Of a stretch of DNA of 64,000 bases, positions 27,356-49,762 are shown piece by piece (the first letter of the stretch is position 1; each line of letters starts with the position of its first letter). Location of the stretch: positions 6,014,001 through 6,078,000 of the forward strand of contig NZ_CP023699.1 in NCBI RefSeq assembly GCF_008704495.1, written 5' to 3'. Below the pieces are notes generated by a model. That model saw only the letters and a list, made by a program, of their open reading frames with translations. It searched no databases and had not been told where the DNA came from. The DNA comes from Streptomyces kanamyceticus. GTDB lineage: Bacteria; Actinomycetota; Actinomycetes; Streptomycetales; Streptomycetaceae. Made by a program: the position numbers and the translations under genes.

Positions 27356-27415
27356 GTGAATAACAAGGTCACAGTGAGTAGCTCCGTACGCAGCTTCATA
27401 CGAGGAGGCACCGCC

Positions 27416-29072
<1,657 letters not shown>

Positions 29073-29080
<8 letters not shown>

Positions 29081-31735: not shown

Positions 31736-32028
31736 CGCGCCCCGTCCCGCCCCTGCCACGGGGCTCCGCCCCGGACCCCGCTCCTCAAACGCCGGAGGGG
31801 CTGATTTTCCCCGCCGGAGGAGCTGGTTCTTCCCCCGGACCCGCTCCAGAATTCCAGCCGGATCCGGGGATGTCTTCCAGCCCGTCCGGCGTTTGAGGAC
31901 GAACTCGGCGGAGCCGGTGATCGACCTGGCACCGTCCGGCGGAGCCGGGAGATTTCGGGAAGGGGCGGGATCGGGGAAAGAACCGCCGGAGGCAAGACGC
32001 CCGCCCCCACTCACCCGCAGAGGAACCG
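31736..32028. other. Intergenic gap rich in dispersed repeats
   Basis: No gene seen. It holds the inverted 43-bp repeat copy (31758-31800), related GCCGGAGGAGCTG segments, and a third short copy at 31884-31899. It separates hutF from hutI, which has its own ribosome site (GAGGAACCG) and may have its own promoter. Confidence 0.7.
31758..31800 (-). repeat. Inverted copy of the 43-bp dispersed repeat
   Basis: Reverse complement of 29107-29149: bases 31776-31800 are an exact 25-base match and the palindrome CGGGGCTCCGCCCCG is conserved with one mismatch. The two copies face each other across the M20 and hutF genes. Confidence 0.85.
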
Positions 32029-33201
32029 ATGCCCACCACCCTCATCACCAACATCTCCAGCCTCGTCACCAACGACCCCTCCCAGGGGGACGGAAGCCCC
32101 CTCGGCCTCCTGACGGACGCGGCCGTCGTCCTCGACGGCGAGCACATCGCCTGGGTCGGCCCCGCCGCGACCGCGCCCGCCGCCGACACGACGTACGACG
32201 CGGAGAACCGGTCGGCGATCCCCGGCTTCGTCGACTCGCACTCCCACCTGGTCTTCGCGGGCGACCGCACCCAGGAGTTCAACGCCCGCATGTCGGGCCG
32301 CAGTTACTCGGCGGGCGGCATCCGCACCACGGTCGCGGCGACGCGCGCGGCGAGCGACGAGGTGCTCGAAGCCAACGTCACCCGCTACCTCGCCGAGGCC
32401 CTGCGCCAGGGCACGACCACGTTCGAGACGAAGTCGGGGTACGGCCTCACCACGCACGACGAGGCCCGCGCCCTGCGCATCGCGGCACGCCACACGGACG
32501 AGGTCACCTACCTCGGCGCGCACATCGTCTCACCGGACTACGCCGACGACCCGGCGGCGTACGTGGCTCTCGTCACCGGCGAGATGCTCGACGCCTGCGC
32601 CCCGCACGCCCGCTGGATCGACGTCTTCTGCGAGAAGGGCGCCTTCGACGGCGACCAGGCCCGCGCGATCCTGACGGCGGGCAAGGCGAAGGGCCTGCAC
32701 CCCCGCATCCACGCGAACCAGCTCTCGTACGGCCCCGGCGTCCAACTGGCGGTGGAACTGGACGCCGCGTCGGCCGACCACTGCACGCACCTGACGGACG
32801 CGGACGTCGACGCGCTCGCCCAGGGCGACACGGTGGCGACGCTCCTCCCCGGCGCCGAGTTCTCCACCCGCGCCGAGTGGCCGAACGCCCGCCGCCTCCT
32901 GGACGCGGGCGCCACGGTCGCCCTCTCCACGGACTGCAACCCGGGCTCGTCCTTCACCTCCTCGGTCCCCTTCTGCATCGCCCTCGCCGTACGGGACATG
33001 GGCATGACCCCCGACGAGGCGCTCTGGTCGGCCACCGCGGGCGGCGCGGCGGCCCTGCGCCGCGACGACGTCGGCCGGATCGCGGTGGGTGCCCGCGCGG
33101 ACCTGGCCCTGCTCGACGCCCCGAGCCACGTCCACCTCGCCTACCGGCCCGGCGTGCCCCTGGTGACCCGGGTCTGGCGGCGCGGGGCGCGGGTGGCCTG
33201 A
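32029..33201 (+). CDS. hutI: Imidazolonepropionase
   Basis: 390 residues. Amidohydrolase motifs [16 protein letters not shown] (about 68-83), [10 protein letters not shown], and STDCNPGSS are those of HutI, which opens imidazolonepropionate to N-formimidoylglutamate, step three of histidine breakdown. ATG start after GAGGAACCG. It closes the hut gene group and is followed at once by a strong hairpin. Confidence 0.94.
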
Positions 33202-33236: not shown

Positions 33237-33313
33237 GTTGGCCGGAAACGCATGGGGCGCACAACCGGCCAGCCGTGGCAGCCTTGAACGGATGTCGTAC
33301 GGGGGAGGCAGGA

Positions 33314-33952
33314 GTGGAGACCTACAGTGCTGTGCGGACCCGGCGCCGTGAGATCACCGTGCTGGTGACGGAGGACGACACACTCGACAGGAAGGCGTTC
33401 ACCCGCCTTCTGCAGCAGGAGCCGGGCCTGCGCCTGGTCGGCGGCGCGGAGGCCGGGGCCGATGTGGTCCGGGAGGCGCTCCGGCTGGCGCCGGACGTGG
33501 TCCTGGTCGACCTGGAGCGCACCGAGAAGGCCCTGGAGACGGTGGCGGCGCTCCGCAGGCACTGCCCGTGCGCGCGCAGCGTCATCCTGACCACGGCGGG
33601 GGACGTCGCGCAGCTGCGCAGGGCGGTGGCCGCGGGGACGTCCGCGTTCGTCATGAAGACGGTCTCCATGAGGGGACTGCGGGACGTACTCAGGCGGGTC
33701 ATGGCGGGCGAGCGGGTACTCGACCCGGACCTGTCCGTGCGCGCCCTGCTCACCGAACGATGTCCGCTCACCCCGCGCGAGTGTGAAGTCCTTGGCGTCT
33801 CACGACGGTCGACGACGGTGGCCGAGATAGCGGCCACCGTCTCGCTGTCTCCGGGCACGGTGCGCAACTACCTGTCACGGGCGATCACGAAGACAGGCGC
33901 CCGCAACCGCCACGAGGCGGCCGCGGCGGCGGCGCGGCTGGGCTGGATCTGA
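33314..33952 (+). CDS. Orphan NarL/LuxR-type response regulator
   Basis: 212 residues. A receiver domain (about 15-130) with the acidic pair EDD, a phosphoacceptor Asp in VVLVDLERT and Lys in FVMKT, then a LuxR HTH (LTPRECEVLGVSRRSTTVAEIAATVSLSPGTVRNYLSRAITKTG). The residues after the Asp are atypical (ERT rather than xMP), so it may not be phosphorylated normally. GTG start after GGGGGAGGCAGGA. No histidine kinase is adjacent. It stands between the hut genes and the RiPP cluster and could regulate either. Confidence 0.82.
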   Translation: METYSAVRTRRREITVLVTEDDTLDRKAFTRLLQQEPGLRLVGGAEAGADVVREALRLAPDVVLVDLERTEKALETVAALRRHCPCARSVILTTAGDVAQLRRAVAAGTSAFVMKTVSMRGLRDVLRRVMAGERVLDPDLSVRALLTERCPLTPRECEVLGVSRRSTTVAEIAATVSLSPGTVRNYLSRAITKTGARNRHEAAAAAARLGWI

Positions 33953-34205: not shown

Positions 34206-35288
34206 TCAGTCCGGGCGGTTCGGGTCGGGGCGGATGGCCAGTTCTGGGAGTACGTCCGCGCAGAAGCGTTCCACGCCGGGACGGGCCACCGCGCCGCCTA
34301 CCGCGCCGAAGTCCACCTGCCACAGGAAGCCGTCCACGTCGAGGATGTCGGCGATGTGCTGGATGCGGTCGGCGACGCGGTGCGGGCCGCCCACGACGGC
34401 GCCGCCGAGGGTGCGGAACGACTCGGGGGTCATCGCGCGGATCGCCCGGCTCATGCCCGTGTAGCCGCGGTAGTCCGAGGAGACCGTCGTCGTCCACGCG
34501 TCCGTCGACTCGGCCCACACCCGCAGGTAGTGCGCGAGCAGCGGGTCCGCCGTCGCGAACGCCTCGCGGTCGTCCCTGCCGACGTACAGCGGCAGGCTCG
34601 CCAGGACGCGCGAGCGGCCTTCCGCGTGCCCGGCCTGCGCGAAGCTCTCCCGGTACACCGCGATGTGGTCGGCCATCTCCTCCAGCGGCGTCAGCGCCGG
34701 GGTCACCAGGAGCCCGTGGCCCTGCTCACCGGCCCAGGCGAAGCTCGACCGGGAGCGGACGGCGGCGATCCAGGTCGGCGGGTGCGGGGACTGCACCGGG
34801 CGGGGCAGCGCCGTCGCGTCGGAGAACCGGAAGTAGGGGGTGTCGACGGAGACCTTCTCCTCGGTCCACAGGCGCAGGACCGCGTCCACCGTGGCGGTGA
34901 ACCGTTCGCGGCTGCCGTCCATCGGCACCCCGAACGCCTCGAACTCGTACGGCAGATAGGCCCGCGCGAACCCGACGTCGAGCCGCCCCCCGCTGAGCGC
35001 GTCCACCATCGCCGCCTCCGAGGCGAGCCGCAGCGGGTGGTGGAAGACCGGCAGGACGCACCCGGTCATCAGGCGCACCCGCGTGGTGACGGAGGCGACG
35101 CTCGCCAGGAAGGCCAGCGGGCTCGGGCAGTAGCCGCCGTAGGCGCGCAGATAGTGCTCGGTGATCTTCACATGGCTGAGCCCCGCCTCGTCGGCCAGCC
35201 TGCTGAGGTCGAGCAGCGTCCGGAAGTACTCGGGCGCGGGCAGCCCGTGGTGTTCGGCATCGGGAAGAAACGACAGGCCGTGCTCCAT
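34206..35288 (-). CDS. Luciferase-like (LLM class) flavin-dependent oxidoreductase of the RiPP operon
   Basis: 360 residues, a TIM-barrel luciferase-like monooxygenase: GLSHVKITEHY near the N-terminus, SGGRLDVGFARAY (about 100-112) and a C-terminal GGPHRVADRIQHIADILDVDGFLWQVD segment. These enzymes use FMN or F420. It is the last gene of the leftward azole-peptide operon, 59 bases after the second protease gene, so it is probably a tailoring oxidase or reductase of the peptide. Which cofactor it uses cannot be told. AAGGAG precedes the ATG. Confidence 0.85.
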   Translation of the reverse strand: MEHGLSFLPDAEHHGLPAPEYFRTLLDLSRLADEAGLSHVKITEHYLRAYGGYCPSPLAFLASVASVTTRVRLMTGCVLPVFHHPLRLASEAAMVDALSGGRLDVGFARAYLPYEFEAFGVPMDGSRERFTATVDAVLRLWTEEKVSVDTPYFRFSDATALPRPVQSPHPPTWIAAVRSRSSFAWAGEQGHGLLVTPALTPLEEMADHIAVYRESFAQAGHAEGRSRVLASLPLYVGRDDREAFATADPLLAHYLRVWAESTDAWTTTVSSDYRGYTGMSRAIRAMTPESFRTLGGAVVGGPHRVADRIQHIADILDVDGFLWQVDFGAVGGAVARPGVERFCADVLPELAIRPDPNRPD

Positions 35289-35347
35289 GACGTAGGTACT
35301 CCTTCTCGCTCCACGCGCCGTGCGCCTTACGCGCCGTGCGCCACGCG

Positions 35348-36187
35348 CTAGATGACGGCGAACACGAAGAACACGACGTGGGCCACCACCAGCGGCGCCA
35401 CGTCCGGCACGGCCCAGAACACCAGGCCGTGCACGACCCCCATCACCACGCCGCCCATCAGGGGGAACATCGCGCCCTGCCAGGTGGACATGAAGAACGC
35501 CTGCATGACGACGAACAGCACGATGGAGGTGGTGAGCGCGACGCCGGGTCCCGCGTCACGCAGCCAGGTGAGGGCGATGCCGCGGAACACCAGCTCCTCG
35601 GAGGCGACCTGGACCCCGGTAAGGCCGAGGGCCGCCCACAGCGGAAGCACCTTCAGGGCGGTGAGGTGGTGCCGGATCCAGCCGCCGCGCGAGCGCCCGA
35701 GCCAGGAGCGCAGGGAGAGGCCGTGGTCCTCGCGGGGCCGTACGCGGACGGGCGTGGAGGTACGCGTCTGGAGGCCCGAACCTCCTGTGGTCCGCGCCGA
35801 GTTGACCGGCGAGGCAGGCACTCGGCGGCGCGCCCCGCCCGCCAGCCTCACCTCGATCAGCGCCCGGCAGATCAGCGAACCGATGGCCAGTTCGCCGATG
35901 CCCAGGAGCACGCCGAGGCCGAGCAGTTCCGGTCTGGCGAGGCCGCTGACCAGCATGCCGGGCCCGATCCCGGTGATCGCCAGGAGCGCCGCCACCACGA
36001 CGACGTGGCTGGCCCCCGCGGCGGCCAGTTCGAAGACGTCGGCGCGCTGCGCCGTGCCCCAGCGCGCCGGGCCGATCCGCGTCACGGCCGCGAGGTGCCG
36101 CACGGCGCGGAAGAGGACGGCCTTGCCGAGCCAGTAGTAGAGGAGCACGACGGCGACGAGGACGAGGACGCGCAGCGGCGTACTCAT
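35348..36187 (-). CDS. CPBP-family intramembrane metalloprotease (second of a pair)
   Basis: 279 residues with about seven hydrophobic helices. The CPBP (CAAX protease/bacteriocin-processing) signature appears as SEELVFRG (the EExxxR motif, about residue 190-200), followed by a helix with MGVVHGLVFW that supplies a His. Its start overlaps the stop of the preceding CPBP gene (ATGA). In bacteriocin clusters such proteins cleave leader peptides or give immunity. An odd, Arg/Thr-rich stretch at about 125-165 lies between the helices. Confidence 0.85.
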   Translation of the reverse strand: MSTPLRVLVLVAVVLLYYWLGKAVLFRAVRHLAAVTRIGPARWGTAQRADVFELAAAGASHVVVVAALLAITGIGPGMLVSGLARPELLGLGVLLGIGELAIGSLICRALIEVRLAGGARRRVPASPVNSARTTGGSGLQTRTSTPVRVRPREDHGLSLRSWLGRSRGGWIRHHLTALKVLPLWAALGLTGVQVASEELVFRGIALTWLRDAGPGVALTTSIVLFVVMQAFFMSTWQGAMFPLMGGVVMGVVHGLVFWAVPDVAPLVVAHVVFFVFAVI

Positions 36188-37053
36188 CGGGCCGTCCCCC
36201 AGGCCGAGGCGGCGGGGCGGTTCTGGCGGGCCGCCGAGGGACGCGCCCGGTGGTAGCGCCAGACCCAGGTGTTGAACAGCGCGTGCCCGATGACGGCGGG
36301 CAGCACCGTGCCGGTGAGCAGCACGGCGCCCGTGCACAGCGCGGCGAGCGGCAGCTTGGAGAGGACCTGGCCCCAGCCGAAGAACACGTGGGACACGGCG
36401 AAGACGAGCTGCACGCCGAGGACCGCGCCGACCACGACGAGCACGGGCCCTGCCCGCAGGGCGAGGCCCAACAGCACGCCCCGGTAGACCAGTTCCTCGG
36501 CCAGCGCCACCGCGAGCAGCAGCGGCAGGCGGACCCGCAGGTCCGCGGAGGTCGGCGCGAAGTCGTTGCGCGCCTCGATGAGTCCGGTGCGCCGCCCGGC
36601 GGTGGCGGCACCCGCGACGGCGACCCCGGCGGGCCGCGCGTGCCCCGAACGCAGCGCCACCGGACGGTCGTCGCGCACGGAGTGTCCGGCCCGCCGCCCC
36701 CACCACCGCGTCACGGACCGGTCGGCGCGGGTGGCCGCGTACCCCACGAGCGGACCGAGCAGCAGCCCCGCCGCGAGCCCCGCCCAGCCGACGTCCCGCA
36801 CCGGCCGCAGGACGCCCGTGCCGAGCAGCGCGGCGGCGCCGAGCACGGCGAGGCCGCAGACGCCGAGGTGCAGACCGAGCATCGGAAGCCGTCGCAGGCC
36901 CGCCCAGCGGGTGTGCAGATGGGCGGCGACGGTCATCGACGCGAGGCCGAGGACGACGACGGTGGCGGCGAGGAGCGGACGGGTGTCGGCCGGTACGGCG
37001 CCGGTCAGTTCGGGGGCGGCGCCGGTCAGTTCAGGGGAACGGATGAGGGGCAT
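36184..37053 (-). CDS. CPBP-family intramembrane metalloprotease (first of a pair)
   Basis: 289 residues, about eight hydrophobic helices. All three family motifs are visible: AEELVYRG (EExxxR, about 185-192), FAVSHVFFGW (His motif) and IGHALFNTW (HxxxN, near the C-terminus), so it should be an active glutamic/metallo-type membrane protease. It overlaps the YcaO gene by 23 bases. A role in removing the leader of the azole peptide, or in immunity, is likely. The N-terminus contains a short direct repeat (ELTGAAPELTGAV). Confidence 0.87.
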   Translation of the reverse strand: MPLIRSPELTGAAPELTGAVPADTRPLLAATVVVLGLASMTVAAHLHTRWAGLRRLPMLGLHLGVCGLAVLGAAALLGTGVLRPVRDVGWAGLAAGLLLGPLVGYAATRADRSVTRWWGRRAGHSVRDDRPVALRSGHARPAGVAVAGAATAGRRTGLIEARNDFAPTSADLRVRLPLLLAVALAEELVYRGVLLGLALRAGPVLVVVGAVLGVQLVFAVSHVFFGWGQVLSKLPLAALCTGAVLLTGTVLPAVIGHALFNTWVWRYHRARPSAARQNRPAASAWGTAR

Positions 37054-38386
37054 GCCGCTGGAACCCTCCGTAGGCCGGGAACCGGGGATGGGCCGCCGTC
37101 GGGGCGCTGGGCAGCGGCAGGGTGAGCAGGTCGGGGCTCCAGAACCGGGCGACGACGAAGCCGAGTTCGGCGGCGTCCACGGTGGTCAGATCGCCGCCGT
37201 AGAGGCGCTTGCCGGTGTCGTGGAAGGCCCGGACGAGCGTGCGCACGCAGGCTTCGGGGTCCGTGTCCGCCGGATCGGGCGGCAGGTCGTCGGCGCTCGC
37301 CTCGTCGCAGTCGCCGTAACGCTCCTCGACGACGCGGGCGCCCTTGGGGGACGCGGCGAGGACGACGTTGCTCTCCAGGTCGAAGATCGCCTCGTCGTCG
37401 GTGGCGGCGCCCGTGGTGTGGTCCTGGACGCTCGTCCAGGTGGCCAGCGCCCGCACCCCGACGCCCTCCAGGAACGCCTTGTACATGGCGGATTCCAGGC
37501 GTACGTCGATGCCGAGGCCGACGGCGACCGCCGGGATCTGCCCGCCCGGCTCGCGGATCAGACAGGCGACGGTGAAGCCGGGCAGGTCGGCGCTGGGCAG
37601 CAGGTGGAACTCGGGCTGCCCGCCCAGCGGATGGCAGTGCCTGGCGATGATCCTGAGCAGCGCCGCGCTGCGCGCGCCTGGCCGGATGCGCACCGACCTG
37701 GTCCCGCCGTACCAGTGCCCGACGGCCGCGTCGATCTGCACCATCTCCTGGAGCGCGCCGAGTGCCGCCTTGTGCGGGTCGGTGTGCGCCGCGGTGCCGG
37801 TGGTGACGGCGGGCTGCACCCAGGGTTCGCCCTCGGCGTCGCGGACCACGTAGCCGACGGTCGTGAGCTGGGCGGGCACCCAGGTGTCGGTGCCGTCGCG
37901 CAGGCAGGTGAGGCGGCTCCAGCCCAGCGGTTCCTCGGGGCGCGGACGCCGGAAGGGGAATCCCTCGCTCGCCAACTGCTCCTGGGTGTACGGGAGATAG
38001 GAGCCGACCGGGAAGTGCGGTTCGTCCGCGAGGTCGGCCTCGGGGGCGAACCGGACGGGGAACGCGCCGCTCACGGCGGCGACGTACCCGGCGTAGCGCT
38101 CCACGACCTCGCCCAGGGTGCGGATGTGCGACTCGTGGGGACGTATCCCGTAGCCGCCGATGTGGTAGCTGCCCAGCTTGGGGCGCGGCTGGTCGCGCAG
38201 GACGTGGACGCCGGTGAGGTCGCCGCCCGAGACCATGAGGCGGGGCGCGTACCGGGGCCGGGTGAGGAAGCCGAGCTGGGGCATGAGACCGCACAGCGGC
38301 GCGTGCATGCGGCGGCGCAGACGGCTCGTCTGTACGTCGGGCGGCTCGACCAGGCGCAGCCCCGACGCGGTGCGCAGCTCAGGCAT
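37031..38386 (-). CDS. YcaO-domain cyclodehydratase (TOMM D protein)
   Basis: 451 residues. ESHIRTLGEVVERYAGY (about 84-100) and LGALQEMVQIDA (about 208-219) supply the ATP/Mg-binding acidic residues of YcaO proteins. The protein ends in HAPHPFP: the PxPxP C-terminus (PHPFP) that is diagnostic of azoline-forming cyclodehydratases. With ATP it converts Cys/Ser/Thr of a precursor peptide into thiazolines and oxazolines. It works with the E1-like partner encoded just upstream, with which it overlaps by eight bases. C and D are separate proteins here, not fused. Confidence 0.92.
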   Translation of the reverse strand: MPELRTASGLRLVEPPDVQTSRLRRRMHAPLCGLMPQLGFLTRPRYAPRLMVSGGDLTGVHVLRDQPRPKLGSYHIGGYGIRPHESHIRTLGEVVERYAGYVAAVSGAFPVRFAPEADLADEPHFPVGSYLPYTQEQLASEGFPFRRPRPEEPLGWSRLTCLRDGTDTWVPAQLTTVGYVVRDAEGEPWVQPAVTTGTAAHTDPHKAALGALQEMVQIDAAVGHWYGGTRSVRIRPGARSAALLRIIARHCHPLGGQPEFHLLPSADLPGFTVACLIREPGGQIPAVAVGLGIDVRLESAMYKAFLEGVGVRALATWTSVQDHTTGAATDDEAIFDLESNVVLAASPKGARVVEERYGDCDEASADDLPPDPADTDPEACVRTLVRAFHDTGKRLYGGDLTTVDAAELGFVVARFWSPDLLTLPLPSAPTAAHPRFPAYGGFQRHAPHPFP

Positions 38387-39419
38387 CGACCCACCGCCTG
38401 ACGTCGAAGTAGACCTCGGTGCCGTCGCGTTCGGGCACGGTGCCGCAGGACGGGCAGCCGGGCAGCCTGAGCACCTCGGAGTAGACCATCTCCATCGACG
38501 GCAGATAGACGCCGAGCACCTTGCCGACGGTGCTGGTCATGCCGGTGACCGCCATGTTCAGCGCTTCGAGCGCGGTGTGCGAGGCGAGCAGCGAGGAGAG
38601 CACCCCGGTGCCGCCGTCGCCCTGCTCCCCGGCCGCCGCGCCGTTGCCCGCCAGGGCCTTCTTGTAGCGCTGGTAGGCGGCGCCCTCGCGGAGGTTCATC
38701 ACCACGCGGGTCTCGAAGCAGGTGAAACAGGCCGTGCTGTCCGGCACGAACGTCGGCCCCACCAGGAGCAGCGGGCCGTCGAGCGCGGCCTGGATCCAGG
38801 GGGTGCCGAGCGCCAGCGCGACCCGGTTCAGTACGGCGAGGCGCAGCGGGTGCACCGCGTCGGCGACGTGCACCAGGAGGCAGCCGCGCCAGTCCTCGAA
38901 CCGCTCGGCGAACCGTTCGAAGGCCAGGCCGTCCTCCAGGACGTCCAGCGGGCACTCGTCCAGGAGCCGCAGCTGTTCGGCGTGTTCGTCGGGCGCGGTG
39001 ACGGTGAGCTGTTCATGGGCGCCGAGCAGCCCGGCCACCTGGGCGGCCGCCGTGCCGCCGAGGACGCGCAGGGACGGCAGGGTGGCCTCTTCGACGCGCC
39101 CGCTCGCCGTCCGGTCGAGGTAGGCGTCGAGCGCGGTGGAGGGGCCGTGTTCGAGTACGGCGAGCTGGTCCAAGTGGTCGATCAGCGCCTCCAGTTCGGT
39201 CCTGGTGACCCCGGCCTCCTTGGCGAGCTGGGCCCGGTCCCTGGTGCCGTCGAGCCCGCTGACGAGGGTGCTGAGGCGCCCCGCCCCGCTGTGGTCGACG
39301 AGCGTGATCGACTGTGGATTCCATACGCCGGAGCGCAGTTCCACCGTGTTCCTGTCGTGCGGGACCACCGAATAGACGGATTTGATGCGCACGGTGCGGC
39401 TGGTGCGTCGCGTGGACAC
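38379..39419 (-). CDS. E1-like TOMM leader-binding partner (C protein)
   Basis: 346 residues. The N-terminal 100 residues fold like an RRE/winged-helix peptide-binding domain. The rest resembles the ThiF/E1-like scaffold seen in TOMM C proteins, with two CxxC pairs, CFTC (about residue 230) and CPSC (about 325), that would bind zinc. It presents the precursor's leader to the YcaO protein and activates it. The gene overlaps ycaO at its end and follows the radical SAM gene by 21 bases. Confidence 0.88.
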   Translation of the reverse strand: MSTRRTSRTVRIKSVYSVVPHDRNTVELRSGVWNPQSITLVDHSGAGRLSTLVSGLDGTRDRAQLAKEAGVTRTELEALIDHLDQLAVLEHGPSTALDAYLDRTASGRVEEATLPSLRVLGGTAAAQVAGLLGAHEQLTVTAPDEHAEQLRLLDECPLDVLEDGLAFERFAERFEDWRGCLLVHVADAVHPLRLAVLNRVALALGTPWIQAALDGPLLLVGPTFVPDSTACFTCFETRVVMNLREGAAYQRYKKALAGNGAAAGEQGDGGTGVLSSLLASHTALEALNMAVTGMTSTVGKVLGVYLPSMEMVYSEVLRLPGCPSCGTVPERDGTEVYFDVRRWVDA

Positions 39420-39440
39420 GGACTTCTCCTCCCGGTCGGG

Positions 39441-40706
39441 TCAGCCCATGAGTGCGGCGGCAGTCACGGACAGGTCGGTGCGCCCCTGCCGGGGCGCGTT
39501 CAGGTACTGCAGCTCGATGAAGGCGTCGGCGACGTCGTCGGGAGGCAGCCGCAGGCCGTCCTCGTCGCGCTCAACGGTGGTGACGGAGGCGAAGAAGTCG
39601 AGGAGGGTGCGGCAGGCGCGCTGGTCCATCACCTCGTCGAAGGGGCGCCCGGTGCGCTCCTCCCACCAGTCGCGGCGCGCGCCCTCGTACGTCGTCAGGG
39701 ACTGGTAGAGCAGGCGCGGCGCGATCGCGGCCGAGGCCAGTTCGTACTCCTCCTCGAAGACGAGCGGGTCGCGGTTGTAGTCGAGGAGGCGGCCGCGGGC
39801 GTGCGAGAGGTAGCGGCCGCCGAGCACCGAGGTGGCGCCGGAGCCGAATCCGGCCCAGTCGGAGCGGAGCTGGAAGTAGGCCAGGTCGCTGTGGCAGAGG
39901 TGGTCCGGGGTGCCGAAGTGGCTCATCGCGTACTCCGGGAAGCCCGCGTCGGCAAGGAGCTCGGCGCCCACGGCGTAGCCGCGCTTCTGCTCGTCGCGGT
40001 CGATGTGCCGGTTGCCGCGCCCCAGTTGGCGGCGCATCACCGTGCCGTGCGCGGGACGGTAGGGGTACAGCGCGACATGGGTGAGGGGCAGGTCGAGCGC
40101 GGTGCGCACGGCGTCGTACGTCTCGGCGGGCGGCTGCCCCGGGAAGCCGCAGATCAGGTCGATGCTGATGTCCTCGAACCCGGCGTCGGCCGCCTCCTGG
40201 ACGATGCGGCGGGCCTGGTCCGCGTCGTGGCTGCGGCCCAGGGTGCGCAGCCGCCGGTCGTCGAAGGACTGCACGCCGCTGCTCAGCCGGGTGAAGCCGA
40301 CCTCGCGGAACGCGGCGAGCTTGTCGGGGTCGAGGGTCTCGGGACTGCACTCGATCGTCGACTCGCGAAGACCCTCGCGCAGCGGGAACGCCTCGTGCAG
40401 GGCCGCGCTCACCTTCGCGATCTCTTCGAGGGTGAGGATGGAGGCGGTGCCGCCGCCCCAGTAGAGGATGGTCGGCCGGTAGCCCGCGGCGCCCAACGTG
40501 GCGCCGCGCTCGGTGATTTCGTGGCAGAGCGCGTCGATGTAGCGAAGGCGCGGCTGGTCGCTCTCCTTGAGCAGGAGCTCCGAGGTCGGCACCTCCGTCA
40601 CCCAGTCGCAGAAGTGGCACTTGGAGCGGCAGAACGGGATGTGCAGGTAGACGAGGAGGTCCCGGCCGGCGCCGCCCGCTCCGCCCGCCGCGGCGGCACC
40701 GGTCAC
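39441..40706 (-). CDS. HemW/HemN-like radical SAM protein, possibly a thiazole C-methyltransferase
   Basis: 421 residues. YLHIPFCRSKCHFCDW (about 20-35) has the CxxxCxxC that binds the 4Fe-4S cluster, and GGGTAS and GVQSFDDRRLRTLGRSHD are HemN/HemW-family segments. Housekeeping HemW inserts heme, but its location inside an azole-peptide operon argues for a class C radical SAM methyltransferase, which in thiopeptide pathways methylates thiazole carbon. The ATG overlaps the sagB stop (ATGA). The methylation role is inference. Confidence 0.85.
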   Translation of the reverse strand: MTGAAAAGGAGGAGRDLLVYLHIPFCRSKCHFCDWVTEVPTSELLLKESDQPRLRYIDALCHEITERGATLGAAGYRPTILYWGGGTASILTLEEIAKVSAALHEAFPLREGLRESTIECSPETLDPDKLAAFREVGFTRLSSGVQSFDDRRLRTLGRSHDADQARRIVQEAADAGFEDISIDLICGFPGQPPAETYDAVRTALDLPLTHVALYPYRPAHGTVMRRQLGRGNRHIDRDEQKRGYAVGAELLADAGFPEYAMSHFGTPDHLCHSDLAYFQLRSDWAGFGSGATSVLGGRYLSHARGRLLDYNRDPLVFEEEYELASAAIAPRLLYQSLTTYEGARRDWWEERTGRPFDEVMDQRACRTLLDFFASVTTVERDEDGLRLPPDDVADAFIELQYLNAPRQGRTDLSVTAAALMG

Positions 40707-41629
40707 TCCAGCCTCCCCAGGACCACCGAGTGCACGGCCGCCCGCAGCACCCCGTCGATGCCGAGCGCCGCGTGCACCTCGTCGTCGACGAAGCTGGCGC
40801 AGTCGGTCGAGCCCAGGCCGAGCGAGGTCACCGCGAGGTGCATGTTCTGCGCGATGGCGCCGGACTCGTGCAGGACGAAACGCAGGCCCCGCGGCCCGTA
40901 CTTGCGCATGCTCCGCCAGGGACTCGCGACCAGGACCACCAGCGCCGCCGCGGTGTCGAAGGCGATCGCGGTGCCCGGTGTGGTGAAGGCGTCCAGGACC
41001 CGGTCGACGCCCGCCCTGCCGTCCTCCTTGACCAGCACGTCGCGGACGGGCTGGTAGCGGTAGACGCCCACGTCCAGGCCGCTCACGTCGAGCGCGACGA
41101 CGTGCAGCGCCACCGGAAAGAGACCGCCGCCGCTGGGCGCCGTACGGAAGCGGAACGTCTCGTGGCCGCCGCGCAGGAGCTCCACGTCGGCCTCCGCCGT
41201 GAGCCCGTCGGCGAGCCGCAGGACGGTGGCGAGTTCGGCCGCGGCGATGGGGTCCCCGCTGTAGCGGCGCACGCTGCGCCGCCGCATCAGGGCCTCGCCG
41301 AGCTCCATCGTGGCCGCGACGGAGGCGGGCAGTTCGGTGAGCTGGTGGGTGGCGACCGGGTCGTCGTCGAGCTGGGCGAGCGTGGTGACCATGGAGTCGC
41401 CGAAGTAGTCGGCGGCGGACAGGACGCCCTCGCGGTCGTGGGCCCGCAGGCGGCTGGCCGTCAGGAACTCCTCGGCCACGCGGCTGCCGGACGCGGCGGC
41501 GGGTTCGGCGCCCAGGTTGTCGAAGCGGAGCTGGTGCGTGCGCACGCCCACCGACCGCGCCTCGGGCGCCAGTACGCGATAGGCGTTGATGCCGAGGCTG
41601 AACTGGGTGAGACCGGAATCCTCGTTCAT
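40703..41629 (-). CDS. SagB-type FMN dehydrogenase of the azole pathway
   Basis: 308 residues. The nitroreductase fold has RRRSVRRYSG (about 116-125), PSGGGLFPVALHVVAL (about 168-183) and the C-terminal LRFVLHESGAIAQNMHLAVTSLGLGS, all as in SagB/ThcOx dehydrogenases. With FMN it oxidises azolines to aromatic thiazoles and oxazoles. Its presence indicates that the product carries azoles, not only azolines. It overlaps the VOC gene's stop by an ATGA. Confidence 0.9.
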   Translation of the reverse strand: MNEDSGLTQFSLGINAYRVLAPEARSVGVRTHQLRFDNLGAEPAAASGSRVAEEFLTASRLRAHDREGVLSAADYFGDSMVTTLAQLDDDPVATHQLTELPASVAATMELGEALMRRRSVRRYSGDPIAAAELATVLRLADGLTAEADVELLRGGHETFRFRTAPSGGGLFPVALHVVALDVSGLDVGVYRYQPVRDVLVKEDGRAGVDRVLDAFTTPGTAIAFDTAAALVVLVASPWRSMRKYGPRGLRFVLHESGAIAQNMHLAVTSLGLGSTDCASFVDDEVHAALGIDGVLRAAVHSVVLGRLE

Positions 41630-42249
41630 GCGCTGGGTCCTCCTGGCCGGTGCCGCTCGGTCGTCGCGTCCGTCGCGTCCGTCGCGTCTGTCGCGCCTGC
41701 CGCGTCGAACAGCTGGGTGCTCGCGGGGACCCGCCGGGCGAGCGCGATCGACTGGTCCTTCAACTGCTCCTCGCTGACCGGGTTCGCGTACGCGCCGAGG
41801 GCGAACGTGGCGTGCGCCCACTCGCTGAGCTCGACGATCCCCAGGCGGTTGCCCTCGGCGTCGTGCAGGCTCGCGCCCCGCCCCATGGAGTCGCCCGCCT
41901 CACCGCGGTAGAAGGGGCTGTCCCGGAATTGATCACGGAATTCGTCGCGGATCTTCTGCGGCAGCGGAAGGTCATAGGGTCCGGCCACGACGGTGCCGCC
42001 CGACGCTTTCCACGACGCGAGTGCCGCATCCATGTCCTCGACAGCGAACATCACCGTAGGGCCCTCGCCCGGGAAATTCCGCTTATTGACGGTGAGCAGT
42101 ATGCCGTCGCTCGAAACGGGGGCGTGGAAAGAAATCTGGTCAGGTGCGAGGGAGCGGGCGAGCCGGAGCCCGAGAAACCCCTCGTAGAAATCGATTCCGG
42201 CGTCGACGTCGTCGACAGGGACATTGATGATGACAGGTTTGGGAATCAT
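41626..42249 (-). CDS. VOC/glyoxalase-like protein of the RiPP operon
   Basis: 207 residues. Vicinal-oxygen-chelate fold: VIINVPVDDVDAGIDFYEGFLGLRLA at the start and GRGASLHDAEGNRLGIVEL in the middle. Family members are glyoxalases, dioxygenases or drug-binding resistance proteins. Sitting between the precursor and the modification enzymes it may give self-protection or act on the peptide. GGAGG precedes the ATG. The tail contains (D-A-T)n encoded by a 9-bp tandem repeat at 41663-41698. Confidence 0.82.
   Translation of the reverse strand: MIPKPVIINVPVDDVDAGIDFYEGFLGLRLARSLAPDQISFHAPVSSDGILLTVNKRNFPGEGPTVMFAVEDMDAALASWKASGGTVVAGPYDLPLPQKIRDEFRDQFRDSPFYRGEAGDSMGRGASLHDAEGNRLGIVELSEWAHATFALGAYANPVSEEQLKDQSIALARRVPASTQLFDAAGATDATDATDATTERHRPGGPSA
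41663..41698. repeat. 9-bp tandem repeat (GTCGCGTCC, four copies)
   Basis: Three exact or one-mismatch copies of GTCGCGTCC plus a degenerate fourth, in frame within the VOC gene near its 3' end. Copy-number changes would add or remove Asp-Ala-Thr triplets without a frameshift. Confidence 0.8.
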
Positions 42250-42286
42250 CTCTCGCTTCCTCCTGCGGCGCCGTGCCGCCCCTGGA

Positions 42287-42313
42287 GGTGCCGGGCCGCG
42301 CGCGCCCGGCACC
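42287..42313 (-). terminator. Hairpin between the RiPP precursor and the modification genes
   Basis: A perfect 10-bp stem (42287-42296 with 42304-42313) and a 7-base loop lie nine bases past the precursor stop codon, 38 bases before the VOC start. There is no U-tract. RiPP operons often carry such a leaky terminator or RNA-stabilising hairpin so that precursor is made in excess over enzymes. Confidence 0.6.
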
Positions 42314-42321
42314 CCTTCTGC

Positions 42322-42492
42322 TTACGCCAGCGGGCGCACTACGGCTCCGCAGGACGTGGACGTACAACCTGCGCAGCAGGAGGACGCCCCGGGCACCACG
42401 ACGCCGAAGGCGGCCCCGTCGGCCGCCGACACGAGGCCCGGCTGGAGGGCCGAACTGCGGTGCTCGACAACGATCACGCTCTCGATCTTCAA
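42322..42492 (-). CDS. Azole-peptide (TOMM/LAP) precursor peptide
   Basis: 56 residues, first gene of the leftward operon. The TTG start is supported by GGGAGG nine bases upstream and by an in-frame TGA just before it; no ATG is available. Leader: Val-rich, acidic N-terminus MKIESVIVVEHRSSALQPGL. Core about 37-56: SSCCAGCTSTSCGAVVRPLA, with ten Ser/Thr/Cys residues between 37 and 48, the kind of residues YcaO enzymes cyclise. Leader and core boundary are inferred; a cleavage site near G35-A36 is possible. Four Cys (39, 40, 43, 48) are probable thiazoles. No Lan-type dehydratase is present, so a linear azole peptide is more likely than a thiopeptide. Confidence 0.85.
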   Translation of the reverse strand: MKIESVIVVEHRSSALQPGLVSAADGAAFGVVVPGASSCCAGCTSTSCGAVVRPLA

Positions 42493-42645
42493 GTGAATTC
42501 ACCTCCCGGATCACTTATCGATGAAGCGCGGAACGCGAATGGTGAATGTCCCGCACAAGTTCCCAAGTATCGGAAGGCCGGAACTCGCCTGTCAACGCGG
42601 AATTCCCCGGGCCGCGTCATCGAATACCGGTTACAAATGTCATTG

Positions 42646-42661
42646 GTGAACGATTGTGAAC
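42646..42661. promoter_or_regulatory. Direct repeat GTGAAC-N4-GTGAAC in the divergent promoter
   Basis: Two copies of GTGAAC, ten bases apart start-to-start (42646-42651 and 42656-42661), in the 246-base gap between the precursor gene and the ABC transporter. A one-turn spacing is what a tandem-binding regulator would need. Functional role is inferred. Confidence 0.35.
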
Positions 42662-42738
42662 CATTTCCCGTAAACGATCTACTGCTACTCTGGCGCGGCT
42701 CGATGGCGTCGGAATCGGACGAGGGGCAAGGGGCGAGG

Positions 42739-43665
42739 ATGACGGCGGCGGAAATTCTGGTACGCGTGCGCGACGTCGATGTCGTCCGGCGGCGCGGCGG
42801 CGCCCGGATACAGGCCCTGTCCAGGGTCGGCCTCGAGGTGCGGCGCGGCGAGCGGGTGGCGCTGCTCGGCGCCAACGGCGCGGGCAAGACGACGCTGACC
42901 CACGTCATGCTCGGCCTGCTGCGGCCGACCGGCGGCACCGTCGAGGTGCTCGGCGGCCCGCCGGGACCCGGGCTCGCCGCGGGCGAACTCGGCGCGATGC
43001 TGCAGGAGTCGGGCCTGATGCGCAACGTGCGCGTCGGCGAACTGATCACCCTGGTAACCGAGTTGTACGGGCGGCGTGCCAGCGAAGAGGTCCTGGCCGA
43101 GTGCGGCCTGGGGGAGTTGAGCCGACGGCAGGTGACACAGCTGTCGGGCGGCGAGCGGCAGCGTCTGCGCCTGGGCCTCGCCCTGGCGGGACTGCCGCGG
43201 CTGCTGTTCCTCGACGAGCCCACCGTCGCCCTCGACGTCGCGGCGCGCGGCCGCTTCTGGGAGATCCTCAACGAGCGCGCGAGGAGCGGCGCGACGGTGC
43301 TCTTCACCACCCACTACCTGCACGAGGCCGAACAGTTCGCCGACCGCGTGGTGGTGCTCAGGGCGGGCCGGATCGTCGCGGACGGCACGGTCGACGAGCT
43401 GCGCTCGGCGTTCACCGAGAGCCGCGTCTCCTTTCGCACGGACGAGCCGCTGCCCGACAGCATGCTGCGCGGCCTGCCCGGCGTCCGCACGACCGAGGAG
43501 CGCGACGACGGCACCCGCGTGCTCACCACCACCGACAGCGACGCGACGCTCGCCGCGCTCTACGCCAAGGTCGGCGGCACGGCCGGGACCGTGCCGCGCG
43601 GCCTCACCCTCACGACGGCCTCCCTGGAGGACGCCGTGGCCACCCTGCTGGAAGAGGAGCACTGA
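42739..43665 (+). CDS. ABC exporter ATP-binding protein of the RiPP cluster
   Basis: 308 residues. Walker A GANGAGKTTLTH, signature LSGGERQRLRLGLAL, Walker B LLFLDEP and a DrrA-like C-terminal part ending TLTTASLEDAVATLL. This is the type that pairs with an ABC-2 permease to export antibiotics. The ATG at 42739 is five bases after AAGGGG; an upstream ATG at 42703 lacks a site. It is divergent from the precursor operon and one base before the permease gene. Confidence 0.9.
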   Translation: MTAAEILVRVRDVDVVRRRGGARIQALSRVGLEVRRGERVALLGANGAGKTTLTHVMLGLLRPTGGTVEVLGGPPGPGLAAGELGAMLQESGLMRNVRVGELITLVTELYGRRASEEVLAECGLGELSRRQVTQLSGGERQRLRLGLALAGLPRLLFLDEPTVALDVAARGRFWEILNERARSGATVLFTTHYLHEAEQFADRVVVLRAGRIVADGTVDELRSAFTESRVSFRTDEPLPDSMLRGLPGVRTTEERDDGTRVLTTTDSDATLAALYAKVGGTAGTVPRGLTLTTASLEDAVATLLEEEH

Positions 43666-43666
43666 C

Positions 43667-44413
43667 GTGCACGTGCTGCGCTACGCGAAGCTGGACACCC
43701 TCTGCCTCATCCGCAGCGGCTACTTCCTGACCTTCTCGGTGCTCTTCTCCGCGGGGTTCTACCTGATGTTCACCGTGGTGGCGGCCGATGCCATCTCGGA
43801 CAGCCCGGACTTCGCCCGTGACTACATGCTGTCCATGTCGGTGTCGGGCGCGTTCTTCGGCGCGCTCAACGCCGCGGGCATCCGGCTCGGCGCGGAGCGC
43901 GGCGAGGGCTGGGCCCGGCAGATCCTGCTGACCCCGCTTTCGGGCCGCGCCTACCTGGGGGCCAAGGCCCTCACCGCGTGGCTGGCCACGCTGCCCGCGA
44001 CCCTGGTGGTCTTCGCCCTTGGCGCGCTGGTCAACGACGTGTCGATGCCCGCGGCCGACTGGCTCGCCGCGCTGGCCGTGATCTGGGGTGCCAGCGCCGT
44101 CTTCGTGGTGGCGGGCCTGGCCGTGGGCCTCGTGGCGGTGGGCGAGGCCGCGCAGTTCACCTGCCTCGGCGTGTTCTTCCCGCTGGCACTCCTGGGCGGC
44201 CTGTGGTTCCCGCTCGACGACTTCCCCACGGGCCTGCGCCGCGCCGCCGACTACCTCCCGACCCGCTCCCTCGACCAACTGGCCACGCTGGTCACCCCCG
44301 GCGGGGCGGACACCTCCTGGCTGCGCCCGCTCCTGGTCCTGGTCTGCTGGGGCGCGGCCCTCGGCGCGGTGGTCCTGAGCCGGTCGCGGGCGGCGGTGCT
44401 CGCGCGGGTGTGA
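43667..44413 (+). CDS. ABC-2 type permease of the RiPP exporter
   Basis: 248 residues with six hydrophobic segments, typical of the DrrB/ABC-2 fold. GTG start one base after the ATPase stop, with GAGGAG in the preceding gene. It probably exports the azole peptide or protects the host from it. The last 45 bases of the gene (44369-44413) are duplicated exactly at 48553-48597. Confidence 0.88.
   Translation: MHVLRYAKLDTLCLIRSGYFLTFSVLFSAGFYLMFTVVAADAISDSPDFARDYMLSMSVSGAFFGALNAAGIRLGAERGEGWARQILLTPLSGRAYLGAKALTAWLATLPATLVVFALGALVNDVSMPAADWLAALAVIWGASAVFVVAGLAVGLVAVGEAAQFTCLGVFFPLALLGGLWFPLDDFPTGLRRAADYLPTRSLDQLATLVTPGGADTSWLRPLLVLVCWGAALGAVVLSRSRAAVLARV
44369..44413 (+). repeat. 45-bp direct repeat, copy 1 (end of the permease gene)
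   Basis: These 45 bases, coding the last 14 residues and stop of the ABC permease, recur without a mismatch at 48553-48597. The two copies bracket the two-component/DUF4190/hydrolase module (4.2 kb). Confidence 0.9.
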
Positions 44414-44452
44414 CGCCCAGCTCACTCGCGTGGGTGTGACGCCCCGCTCACC
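44401..44452. repeat. 26-bp tandem duplication
   Basis: Bases 44401-44426 and 44427-44452 match at 23 of 26 positions. The unit contains the permease stop codon and the sequence GGTGTGACGCCC, and it reaches into the 3' end of the convergent response-regulator gene. Confidence 0.75.
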
Positions 44453-45116
44453 CGGCCCCCGCGCCCCCGGGCACGACCAGGCCGGTTTCGTACGCGATCA
44501 CCACCGCGTGGGTCCTGTTCTGCGCGCCGAGTTTGGTCAGTACGTTCCCGACGTGCGTCTTCACCGTCTCCAGGCTCACCCGGCACGACTCCGCGATGTC
44601 CGGGTTGGACCGACCGGTGGCCATCAGGCGCAGCACCTCCTCCTCCCGGCCCGTCAGCGCCGCCCGCGGCAGCGCATCCGCGGATTCCCGTGGGCGGGCG
44701 GCGACCATCTGGCGCAGCGCCGCGGGGAAGAGGATCGCCTCGCCCGCCGCGACCACCCGCACCGCCTCCGCGATCTTGGGGACGGGGAGCCGCTTGAGCA
44801 CGAAGCCGCTGGCGCCCGCGCTGAGCGCGGCGGTGACGTAGTCGTCGTTCTCGAAGGTGGTGATCACCACGACCTTCGGCGGGTCCGCCGACTCGGCGAG
44901 GAGCTGCCGGGTGGCCTCGATGCCGTTGCGGCGCGGCATGCGTACGTCCATCAGGACCACGTCCGGCCGCAACTGCCGGGCCCGCTCGACCGCTTCGACG
45001 CCGTCGGCGGCCTCCCCGACGACGGCGATCCCCGGCTGCATCGCGAGCAGCGTGCGCAGACCGCTGCGGGTCACCTCGTCGTCGTCCGCGATGAGGAGGG
45101 TGGTGCGGTCGATCAT
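44448..45116 (-). CDS. NarL/LuxR-family response regulator
   Basis: 222 residues. The receiver has ADDDEVTR, the phosphoacceptor Asp in VVLMDVRMPRRNG (about residue 55) and the switch Lys in FVLKRLP. The C-terminal LuxR HTH is LTGREEEVLRLMATGRSNPDIAESCRVSLETVKTHVGNVLTKL. It overlaps the kinase stop (ATGA) and is thus its cognate partner. Next to an ABC exporter, it probably controls export or immunity. Confidence 0.92.
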   Translation of the reverse strand: MIDRTTLLIADDDEVTRSGLRTLLAMQPGIAVVGEAADGVEAVERARQLRPDVVLMDVRMPRRNGIEATRQLLAESADPPKVVVITTFENDDYVTAALSAGASGFVLKRLPVPKIAEAVRVVAAGEAILFPAALRQMVAARPRESADALPRAALTGREEEVLRLMATGRSNPDIAESCRVSLETVKTHVGNVLTKLGAQNRTHAVVIAYETGLVVPGGAGAG

Positions 45117-46366
45117 GCGGGCAAGCGTACGGGCAGCCGGACCGCGAGCCGCCAGTGCTCAGGCCCGTCGGGACCGGCCTCGATCTCGCCGTTCAGGAGC
45201 CGCACCCGCTCGACGAGGCCGGGCAGACCGTGCCCGGACGTCGGGAAGGCGCCCTGGCCCGTGCCGCTCCCGGCGCCTGTCCGGTTGACCACGGCGAGCT
45301 CCAGCGAGTCCGGCGCGGCCGCCACCTTGACCTGGATCGGACCGCCCGCCCCGTGCCGCAGCGCGTTCGTCAGCCCTTCCTGCAGGATCCGGTACGCCGC
45401 CCGGGAGAGCGTGCCCTGCGCCTGCGCGTAGTCGCCCGAAAGGTCGGGCTCCACCACCGCGCCCGCGTGCCGCAGCCGGTCGAGGAGTTCGGGCAGGTCG
45501 GCCAGGGTCCTGGCAGGTGCGGTACCCGCCTTCTCCTCGCGCAGCATGCCGAGCACGTAGTCCAGGTCCTCAAGGGCGGCCCGGGTCGACTCCTCGATGC
45601 TGCGCAGGGCGGCCCGCGCCGCCACCGGGTCGGCACCGAGCATCTCGCCCGCCACCGCCGCCTGGATCGTGGCGGCCGTCAGAGTGTGCCCGATCGAGTC
45701 GTGCAACTCGTGGGCAAGACGGTTGCGTTCGGCCAGGACCCGTTCGCGCTCGGCGAGGGCCCGCTCCCGCTCGGCCGCGAGGGCGAGCCGCTCGCCCGAC
45801 GAAGGGCCGAGGAGCCTGGGCGCCAGCCACCGCAGGGCGTACGTCACCGCCAGGCACAGAGCCGCCGCGAGCAGCACGCAGCAGAGGGCCGCCGCCCAGC
45901 TCTGCCAGCCGCTCCCCGCCCGCAGCGACCAGCCGTGCACACTCACCCCGGCCTCGGCACCGGCCCACCCGCCGGGAAGGAGCAGACCCGCGACGAACAG
46001 CAGGACGCCGAGCTGCGCCCCCACCCACCCGAGGAGCACGTGCGACAGCAGCCAGAGCGGGGTCCGCAGCCGGTCGGCGCCGCGCCGACGCTCGCCCACG
46101 GGGTCCGGCAACGGCACCCCCAGCATCCGCCGGGCGCAGGCGATCAGCACCCGCCGCGTGGTGCGGGCGAGGCCGATCGCACCGATCAGTACGGCCCAGA
46201 CCAGCGCGGTCAGCGCGAACTGCACGCCCACGGGAGCGGACGGCCAAGCCACCGCAGGTAGCGCGGCGAAAGGCAGCAGGGGAAGGCTCGCCAACGCGCC
46301 GCAATAGGCGAACAGCGCACCCGCATACGTGGAGCCGCTCAGCAGCGGCCGGATTCCTCTGAACAT
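45113..46366 (-). CDS. Two-component sensor histidine kinase (HisKA_3 type)
   Basis: 417 residues. About five N-terminal transmembrane helices (about 10-200) are followed by a coiled segment and the HisKA_3 box RNRLAHELHDSIGHTL with the phospho-His, then a HATPase domain with NALRHGAGG and GHGLPGLVERV. ATG at 46366; a longer frame runs through the promoter palindrome and is unlikely. It senses an unknown membrane signal and phosphorylates the overlapping NarL regulator. Confidence 0.9.
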   Translation of the reverse strand: MFRGIRPLLSGSTYAGALFAYCGALASLPLLPFAALPAVAWPSAPVGVQFALTALVWAVLIGAIGLARTTRRVLIACARRMLGVPLPDPVGERRRGADRLRTPLWLLSHVLLGWVGAQLGVLLFVAGLLLPGGWAGAEAGVSVHGWSLRAGSGWQSWAAALCCVLLAAALCLAVTYALRWLAPRLLGPSSGERLALAAERERALAERERVLAERNRLAHELHDSIGHTLTAATIQAAVAGEMLGADPVAARAALRSIEESTRAALEDLDYVLGMLREEKAGTAPARTLADLPELLDRLRHAGAVVEPDLSGDYAQAQGTLSRAAYRILQEGLTNALRHGAGGPIQVKVAAAPDSLELAVVNRTGAGSGTGQGAFPTSGHGLPGLVERVRLLNGEIEAGPDGPEHWRLAVRLPVRLPA

Positions 46367-46400
46367 GGCCAGGCAAGTATGACCGGACCGCCCACCGGCG

Positions 46401-46422
46401 CCCTCCCCCGATCGGGGGAGGG
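46401..46422. promoter_or_regulatory. Perfect 22-bp palindrome in a divergent promoter region
   Basis: CCCTCCCCCGATCGGGGGAGGG is a perfect inverted repeat 35 bases upstream of the kinase start and about 90 bases upstream of the DUF4190 gene. It is a likely operator, perhaps for the NarL regulator encoded by the kinase operon. Confidence 0.5.
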
Positions 46423-46513
46423 AATTCTCCCGCCTTCCCGCGATGTGCCCAAGGGCCCCGAAAACCAGAATCGGGTTCTCACCAGTTGACGGGACGAAAG
46501 GACGGGCAGACCG

Positions 46514-46909
46514 ATGAACGCCTCCGCTCAGGACCACGCCGTACGGAATGCGACGGCACCTCCGACAGCACCTCCGACGGAACCTCCGACGGCACCGAAG
46601 AACAGCCTGGCCACGGCCGCCGTGACGCTGGGCGTCATCGGCCTGTGCACCTCGGTCGTCTTCATCGGCGGCCCGCTCGCCGTGATCGGCCTGATCCTGG
46701 GCATCGCCGCGCTGCTGACGGCCAAGCGGACCGGTGCGGGCCGGGGCAAGGCGGTCACCGCCGTGGTGACGTCGTCCCTCGCGATCGTGGTGTCAGGGCT
46801 CGTCGCCGTCTTCATGCTCTGGTACGCGAACAAGACGCAGGAGTGCTATCAGCCCGACAGTTTCCACGAGTACACGCAGTGCGTTCGCGACCACGTGAAC
46901 GGAATGTGA
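46514..46909 (+). CDS. DUF4190-domain membrane protein
   Basis: 131 residues. A Thr/Pro-rich repeat APPTAPPTEPPTAPK near the N-terminus is followed by two hydrophobic helices (about 32-58 and 72-97) with the DUF4190 pattern LAVIGLILGIAALLTAKRTGAGRGKAVT, and a short extracellular tail with two Cys. Common in actinobacteria; function unknown. It is divergent from the kinase gene. Confidence 0.8.
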   Translation: MNASAQDHAVRNATAPPTAPPTEPPTAPKNSLATAAVTLGVIGLCTSVVFIGGPLAVIGLILGIAALLTAKRTGAGRGKAVTAVVTSSLAIVVSGLVAVFMLWYANKTQECYQPDSFHEYTQCVRDHVNGM

Positions 46910-49757: not shown

Positions 49758-49762
49758 GTCAC

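Follow-up and report, generated by a model that had tools for sequence, protein, structure and literature searches.

What does an operon make that joins azole-forming enzymes to a radical S-adenosylmethionine (SAM) protein, a luciferase-like monooxygenase (LLM), a VOC protein and two CPBP membrane proteins? This question is raised by a locus of Streptomyces kanamyceticus lying in a stretch of 64,000 nucleotides, here called the window (positions 6014001-6078000 of G000:C1, the 10.13 Mb single-contig genome; GC content 0.665 to 0.752 in 2-kb steps), for which a sequence-only reading had proposed an azole-peptide gene cluster. The present analysis makes it likely that the operon is a pathway for a ribosomally synthesised and post-translationally modified peptide (RiPP) of the linear azol(in)e-containing peptide (LAP) or thiazole/oxazole-modified microcin (TOMM) kind, in which a small gene-encoded peptide very probably acquires a series of linked thiazole rings before being decorated further. 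The pathway is familiar in kind, and its tailoring set is unusual.

The identities, order and conservation of the genes are matters of observation. Nine minus-strand genes run from 42492 to 34206 in the order precursor, VOC, SagB, radical SAM, C protein, YcaO, CPBP1, CPBP2 and LLM, and are read as one operon because five of the eight junctions overlap, by 4 to 23 bases; the remaining gaps are 21, 59 and 72 bases, the last between the precursor and VOC genes. Every gene named in the sequence-only reading was recovered where it had been placed, with the coordinates rechecked.

42322-42492, minus strand: precursor peptide of 56 residues, TTG start behind GGGAGGTG
42250-42321, minus strand: predicted hairpin between the precursor and VOC genes (minimum-energy folding)
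41626-42249, minus strand: VOC (glyoxalase/bleomycin-resistance fold) protein; PF00903, 28.3 bits
40703-41629, minus strand: SagB-type azoline dehydrogenase; TIGR03605, 103.7 bits against a curated cut-off of 78.4
39441-40706, minus strand: class C radical SAM methylase of the NocN/NosN type; match to NocN (9p2u), E=4e-100
38379-39419, minus strand: C protein, an E1-like domain with an N-terminal strand-helix domain; TIGR03882, 53.4 bits against a cut-off of 36.9
37031-38386, minus strand: YcaO (D protein) with C-terminus PHPFP; PF02624, 120.8 bits against a cut-off of 25.7
36184-37053, minus strand: CPBP1, intramembrane protease with the full motif; PF02517, 43.9 bits
35348-36187, minus strand: CPBP2, degenerate CPBP protein; PF02517, 31.0 bits
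34206-35288, minus strand: LLM; PF00296, 200.5 bits

Azole-forming enzymes and the precursor family

Genome contigs were scanned with a YcaO alignment, which gave 37 loci; 34 relatives (L008-L038 and L045-L047) were tabulated, and the distant loci L039-L044, with tblastn E values of 2e-48 or weaker, were excluded. All 23 aligned YcaO sequences share P447, H448, P449 and P451 of the PHPxP terminus, and in the C proteins four cysteines, C231, C234, C322 and C325, are nearly invariant among 30. The N-terminal segment of the C protein was modelled as three strands followed by three helices, with a mean predicted local distance difference test score (pLDDT) of 80. Such a strand-then-helix segment is the form expected of a leader-binding domain, and the modelled domain probably binds the leader. 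When the C-protein model was compared with the Protein Data Bank (PDB) by Foldseek, the cyclodehydratases TruD and LynD ranked first, in alignments of about 340 columns, and chains of the McbBCD complex also matched.

A YcaO with its C-protein partner and a Cys/Ser/Thr-rich precursor beside the enzymes are the features by which LAP/TOMM pathways are recognised. Azole formation by the operon enzymes is strongly supported, as it follows from the established chemistry of C, D and B proteins. The azole-peptide call of the sequence-only reading thus stands, on the discrete C and D proteins, SagB, the PxPxP-type terminus, the Cys-rich precursor and the TruD/LynD-like C-protein model.

The leader of the precursor reaches to about residue 35 and ends in VVVPG, leaving ASSCCAGCTSTSCGAVVRPLA as the predicted core. 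Ten of its 21 residues are Cys, Ser or Thr, in which the heterocyclizable residues form runs of 4 and 6 (the longest being 6), and Glu and Asp are absent. The precursor appears conserved, since synonymous codon differences exceed non-synonymous ones both against L008 (19 and 8) and against L009 (19 and 9). Motif and position together identified precursors in 25 of the 34 relatives. The motif search gave none in the other nine: in L011, L024, L035 and L037 the contig starts nearby, and in L017, L021, L022, L023 and L026 the miss is without explanation. In an alignment of the window precursor with 23 of the 25 (the near copies L020 and L029 being left out), M1, P34 and G35 are invariant in 24 of 24. 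A profile search recovered 58 precursor-family proteins including that of the window, with the Pro-Gly junction in 58 of 58, a count that is partly circular because the search profile itself contained the motif.

These precursors further share, as a rule, a (Glu/Asp)-His-Arg-like leader segment and a Cys/Ser/Thr-rich core, often with Cys-Gly-Ala-Val/Thr near its end. Cores of the clade that carries the radical SAM gene read SSCCAGCTS(S/T)SCG, except in L015, where the core is CCSCAGCSSCSCG; those of simpler Streptomyces clusters are as short as CCCSAAIVR. By eye, no trend linking the core sequence to the presence of LLM was visible in the alignment. A minimum-energy hairpin lies 3' of the precursor stop codon in all 12 of the precursor/next-gene gaps that were folded, without a shuffled control, and this predicted structure may favour excess production of the precursor.

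Tailoring proteins and their distribution

The sequence-only reading had described the radical SAM protein as HemW-like, a name that the comparison with solved structures replaces with NocN-type class C methylase. The top NCBIfam match is indeed hemN_rel/HemW; its 154.3 bits lie below the TIGR00539 cut-off of 205.4, and a separate protein elsewhere in the genome scores 234.4 bits, above that cut-off, so that HemW identity was rejected. Among PDB sequences, NocN matches at E=4e-100 and HemN at 8e-27. In the HMMER alignment with NocN, 174 of 383 residues are identical (45%). Eleven NocN positions (34, 40, 44, 47, 96, 153, 171, 196, 225, 227 and 230) were mapped, with roles as given in the available part of PMC12871812. 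Ten of the eleven cluster and SAM-region residues agree with NocN, namely Y20, C26, C30, C33, Y82, R140, R158, D183, Y214 and R217, all kept in 9 of 9 sequences, so that the CX3CX2C motif and the two-SAM residues of a class C methylase were found. Tyr287 and Phe288 of NocN are also retained. The catalytic Tyr276 of NocN is replaced by His263, and by His in 9 of 9 sequences. The gene sits between those of SagB and the C protein in the window and in all eight relatives that have it.

TbtI, a class C enzyme, methylates thiazole. According to the part of PMC12871812 available, class C enzymes transfer one-carbon units to sp2 carbons, and TbtI is among three studied in detail. Since class C enzymes act in this way and TbtI has this activity, the addition of a methyl group to a thiazole is judged, by analogy, the likeliest reaction of the window enzyme. 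Several of its close database relatives (P0186-P0205) are named coproporphyrinogen oxidase or HemW, and these are probably misnamed class C methylases.

The motifs of CPBP proteases are EExxxR, FxxxH and HxxxN. The sequence-only reading had listed two such proteases; this holds for CPBP1, in which EExxxR, FxxSH and HxxxN are retained in 13 of 13 aligned sequences, and fails in part for CPBP2. There, EExxxR is present in 11 of 12 aligned sequences (L045 has DE), the His of the second motif is missing from all 12, its place being taken by Gln in 10, by Lys in L030 and by Val in L045, and the Asn of the third is absent from all 11 that cover the position, so that the full protease motif was not found. 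Loss of activity in CPBP2 is uncertain, because another His, in an MGxxHG-like segment, occurs in 10 of the 12. CPBP1 is a candidate leader protease, and CPBP2 a candidate partner or immunity protein.

The best PDB match of LLM is 7bip (E=7.2e-66), ahead of PuwE. This structure is RslO1, an FMN-dependent luciferase-like monooxygenase, as described in the part of PMC8093152 available. RslO1 serves rishirilide (polyketide) biosynthesis, whereas the window LLM stands beside a RiPP cyclodehydratase. Sixteen LLM sequences from loci of the family are 45-87% identical to that of the window, and LLM is probably an FMN-dependent tailoring oxygenase. The part of PMC12670281 available describes daptide pathways as RiPP clusters that can hold both LLM and YcaO proteins. 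A role of LLM as a dehydroalanine reductase, as in lanthipeptide and daptide pathways, was rejected, there being no dehydratase among the operon genes or the ten scanned neighbours. The VOC gene occurs in 10 of the 34 relatives, including all eight with the radical SAM gene; PDB sequence matches of its product are marginal (best E=0.003), and it is possibly a product-binding or immunity protein.

Among the 34 relatives, tblastn at E 1e-4 found SagB in 33, the C protein in 34, CPBP1 in 26, CPBP2 in 18, LLM in 20, VOC in 10 and radical SAM in 8; some loci are cut by contig ends, and divergent CPBP2 proteins such as that of L045 are missed by these counts. The order SagB-C-YcaO-CPBP1-CPBP2-LLM recurs in Streptomyces and Streptosporangiaceae and also in one Legionella, one Tatlockia and one Parachlamydiaceae metagenome assembly. 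The taxonomic assignments of the last three may be wrong, and their loci do not look actinobacterial because their GC content is low (0.33-0.40).

In a maximum-likelihood tree of 40 D proteins, the window and L008-L015 form one clade (support 97/88), and L008-L015 are the relatives that carry radical SAM and VOC together; VOC without radical SAM is seen in L024 and L027. A single gain of the radical SAM gene is the simplest reading of this tree. Within the compared loci, VOC and the class C radical SAM enzyme mark the window cluster and its clade, and LLM and the CPBP pair are common to a wide family. The sequence-only reading had been unable to match the combination to a known product. Searches aimed at the gene set and at single enzymes, which covered the open literature outside RiPP databases and were judged mainly by titles and the beginnings of abstracts, likewise gave no description of it among the matches listed; the part of that claim that counted LLM and the twin CPBP proteins as distinguishing gives way, these being shared by the wide family.

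The cluster is rare in its genus. YcaO was matched at E<=1e-60 in 6 of 295 genomes, and the radical SAM protein at E<=1e-50 in three, each count including the genome itself; the other two radical SAM matches are G223 (82%) and G051 (38%), and in G051 no YcaO could be recognised in 20 kb, in a rough gene call read by eye. The C protein was matched at E<=1e-40 in 4 of 61 sampled genomes of the bacterial family, again including the genome itself. The closest named proteins come from Streptomyces, and S. formicae has a close relative of the cluster, with YcaO 94% and radical SAM 95% identical.

Three YcaO genes are present in the genome. One belongs to a second, simpler cluster of the same family (G000:C1:4990066-4996478; L045 7707-14119), whose YcaO is 54% identical and which lacks both VOC and radical SAM; its CPBP2 slot is occupied by a protein with a weaker CPBP score, 23.8 bits, and P450 and MFS genes lie upstream. 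The simpler Streptomyces clusters, this one included, form a separate group in the tree (98/98). The third YcaO (G000:C1:7123396-7124427; L058, region L062) is of a different kind (PF02624, 288.9 bits), and its neighbours look by eye like glycosyltransferase and sugar-nucleotide genes. Two Streptomyces genomes carry, next to the family cluster but on the other strand, a second divergent SagB/C/YcaO set (25-34% identity; L028 1473-5798 and L029 1604-5861).

Exporter, regulators and neighbouring genes

Four further features flank the operon, of which the orphan regulator lies beyond the span covered by the sequence-only reading.

42739-43665, plus strand: ABC transporter ATPase, divergent from the operon; PF00005, 91.3 bits
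43667-44413, plus strand: ABC-2 type transporter permease; PF12698, 46.7 bits
33275-33952, plus strand: orphan LuxR-type response regulator; domain matches
44448-46537, minus strand: two-component system; domain matches

A homologue of the ABC ATPase stands beside the cluster in L008, L009, L010 and L013, and the permease is 84, 83, 52 and 54% identical in these loci, respectively; the distance limit used for the presence table hid the L009 permease, which was seen in other comparisons. Exporters vary across the family: the window has the ABC type, the Legionella and Tatlockia loci have MATE after LLM, and the Parachlamydiaceae locus encodes an outer-membrane efflux protein. The loci concerned (L031, L033 and L036) hold the cassette with LLM, followed by these MATE or outer-membrane efflux genes.

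The sequence-only reading had placed the two-component system with the cluster. The best-conserved regulator in these comparisons is instead the orphan response regulator at 33275-33952, which is 69% identical in L008 and 71% in L009 (at the LLM end in both), 44% in L010 and 40-45% in L012, L013 and L014; no match was found in L015 or in L011, where the upstream side is cut. It is the probable pathway regulator. The adjacent two-component system was rejected as the conserved regulator of the clade, as its response regulator is only 31% identical to that same L010 protein, which stands at the matching place, and the kinases are weakly alike. It may still have a role, because a regulator 43-46% identical to its response regulator is carried by two Nonomuraea loci, L021 and L026, which belong to the wider family.

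Histidine-utilisation genes adjoin the cluster on the plus strand (window 27356-33201; hutU 900.5 bits and hutI 357.1 bits, both above cut-off), with an M20 peptidase-like gene and an amidohydrolase gene between hutU and hutI. The methyltransferase encoded at window 48606-49817 resembles those of graspetide (ATP-grasp peptide) systems, scoring 246.6 bits with TIGR04188, whose cut-off is 380; relatives do not retain it next to their azole clusters.

The proposed pathway and its alternatives

In the proposed sequence of steps, the C protein would bind the leader of the 56-residue precursor, and together with YcaO would convert core Cys, perhaps with some Ser and Thr, to azolines using ATP, after which SagB would oxidise the azolines to azoles. 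The radical SAM enzyme would use two SAM molecules to methylate an sp2 carbon, for which a thiazole carbon is the likeliest candidate, and LLM would oxidise the peptide. CPBP1 would cleave at the invariant Pro-Gly or immediately beside it, CPBP2 may assist or protect, the ABC pair would export the product, which VOC may bind, and the orphan regulator would control the operon. The product would most likely be a small antibacterial or signalling peptide.

Taken further, these observations tentatively suggest, at somewhat short of even likelihood, a tailored branch of an undescribed azole-peptide family with a Pro-Gly junction, built on SagB, C, YcaO, a protease, a degenerate protease and LLM, and spread over actinobacteria and amoeba-associated Legionella/Tatlockia and Chlamydiae. 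The branch would make a C-methylated, LLM-oxidised polythiazole by oxidation chemistry new to azole peptides, with the protease pair serving leader removal and self-protection.

Several results weigh against the proposed pathway. YcaO scores 171.2 with the SagD model, whose curated cut-off is 219.25, and the C protein scores 69.7 with that of SagC, whose cut-off is 187.65. The fold match of the C protein, though significant, is loose, with TM scores of 0.41-0.46 and root-mean-square deviations of 7.7-8.9 Å in the TruD and LynD comparisons. Ala replaces NocN Ser225, which contacts the second SAM, in 8 of 9 radical SAM sequences, and the window enzyme has Leu in place of Phe283 and Thr in place of the main-chain contact Ile302. 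Fourteen of the 34 relatives gave no LLM match, and in nine of these the sequence continues far past YcaO; because of this the LLM step is not essential to the family. The VOC structure model is poor (pLDDT 59), and comparisons beside L012, L014 and L015 did not reveal the ABC pair.

Among the alternatives, a TOMM cytolysin of the streptolysin S type, that is, a membrane-lysing azole peptide, would account for the shared precursor, SagB, discrete C and D proteins, CaaX-like membrane protease and ABC exporter, as these systems are described in the available parts of PMC4603692 and PMC4513790. The latter proposes 9-10 contiguous heterocyclizable residues at the N-terminus of the core as the defining feature, in the part available. 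The window core, with its runs of 4 and 6, lacks such a block, and no run above 8 occurs among the 58 family precursors; cytolysin family membership was rejected by this definition. The SagC and SagD models also score below their cut-offs, and LLM, the second, degenerate CPBP protein, VOC and the class C radical SAM enzyme are additional, which leaves a cytolysin unlikely. The propionisin TOMM group shares an actinobacterial origin, a discrete cyclodehydratase, multiple CaaX-like proteases and ABC transporters (PMC4603692, available part). It differs by description only, in that 'luciferase' and 'radical SAM' are absent from the main text of that paper as available; VOC was not among the terms searched for.

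The radical SAM enzyme invites two other explanations. NocN is its closest solved relative, and an enzyme of this type could close a ring, as NosN and NocN do for nosiheptide and nocathiacin, instead of methylating, which would make the product a thiopeptide-like or other macrocyclic azole RiPP. This is a distinctly improbable alternative, given the His at the position of the catalytic Tyr276 and a predicted core without Glu or Asp for an ester link. A scan of the nine genes of the operon and of ten neighbouring genes revealed neither a lanthipeptide-like dehydratase nor a cycloaddition enzyme, and no other thiopeptide enzymes were seen in the operon, so that a thiopeptide was rejected and the separation from thiopeptides drawn in the sequence-only reading is upheld. 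It is less probable still that the protein is a heme chaperone present by chance beside a plain azole-peptide pathway: its best NCBIfam name points that way, but the score is below cut-off, the genome holds a better-scoring HemW, and the gene keeps its place between SagB and C in every relative that has it.

A last alternative concerns function only and is compatible with the tailored azole-peptide chemistry proposed here. The product could be a signalling or metal-binding peptide and not an antibiotic, as the short, similar cores are kept rather than diversified across distant phyla; dedicated exporters (ABC, MATE and outer-membrane efflux) and VOC suit a toxic product as well, and we regard this alternative as rather unlikely.

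If the tailored azole-peptide reading is true, the locus would add an azole-peptide family with radical methylation outside thiopeptides, a luciferase-like oxygenase acting on an azole peptide, and an intact/degenerate pair of CPBP proteins. One conserved pathway would then link soil actinobacteria with amoeba-associated intracellular bacteria. As the same strain carries both a tailored and a simpler cluster, the added steps would be directly comparable within it.

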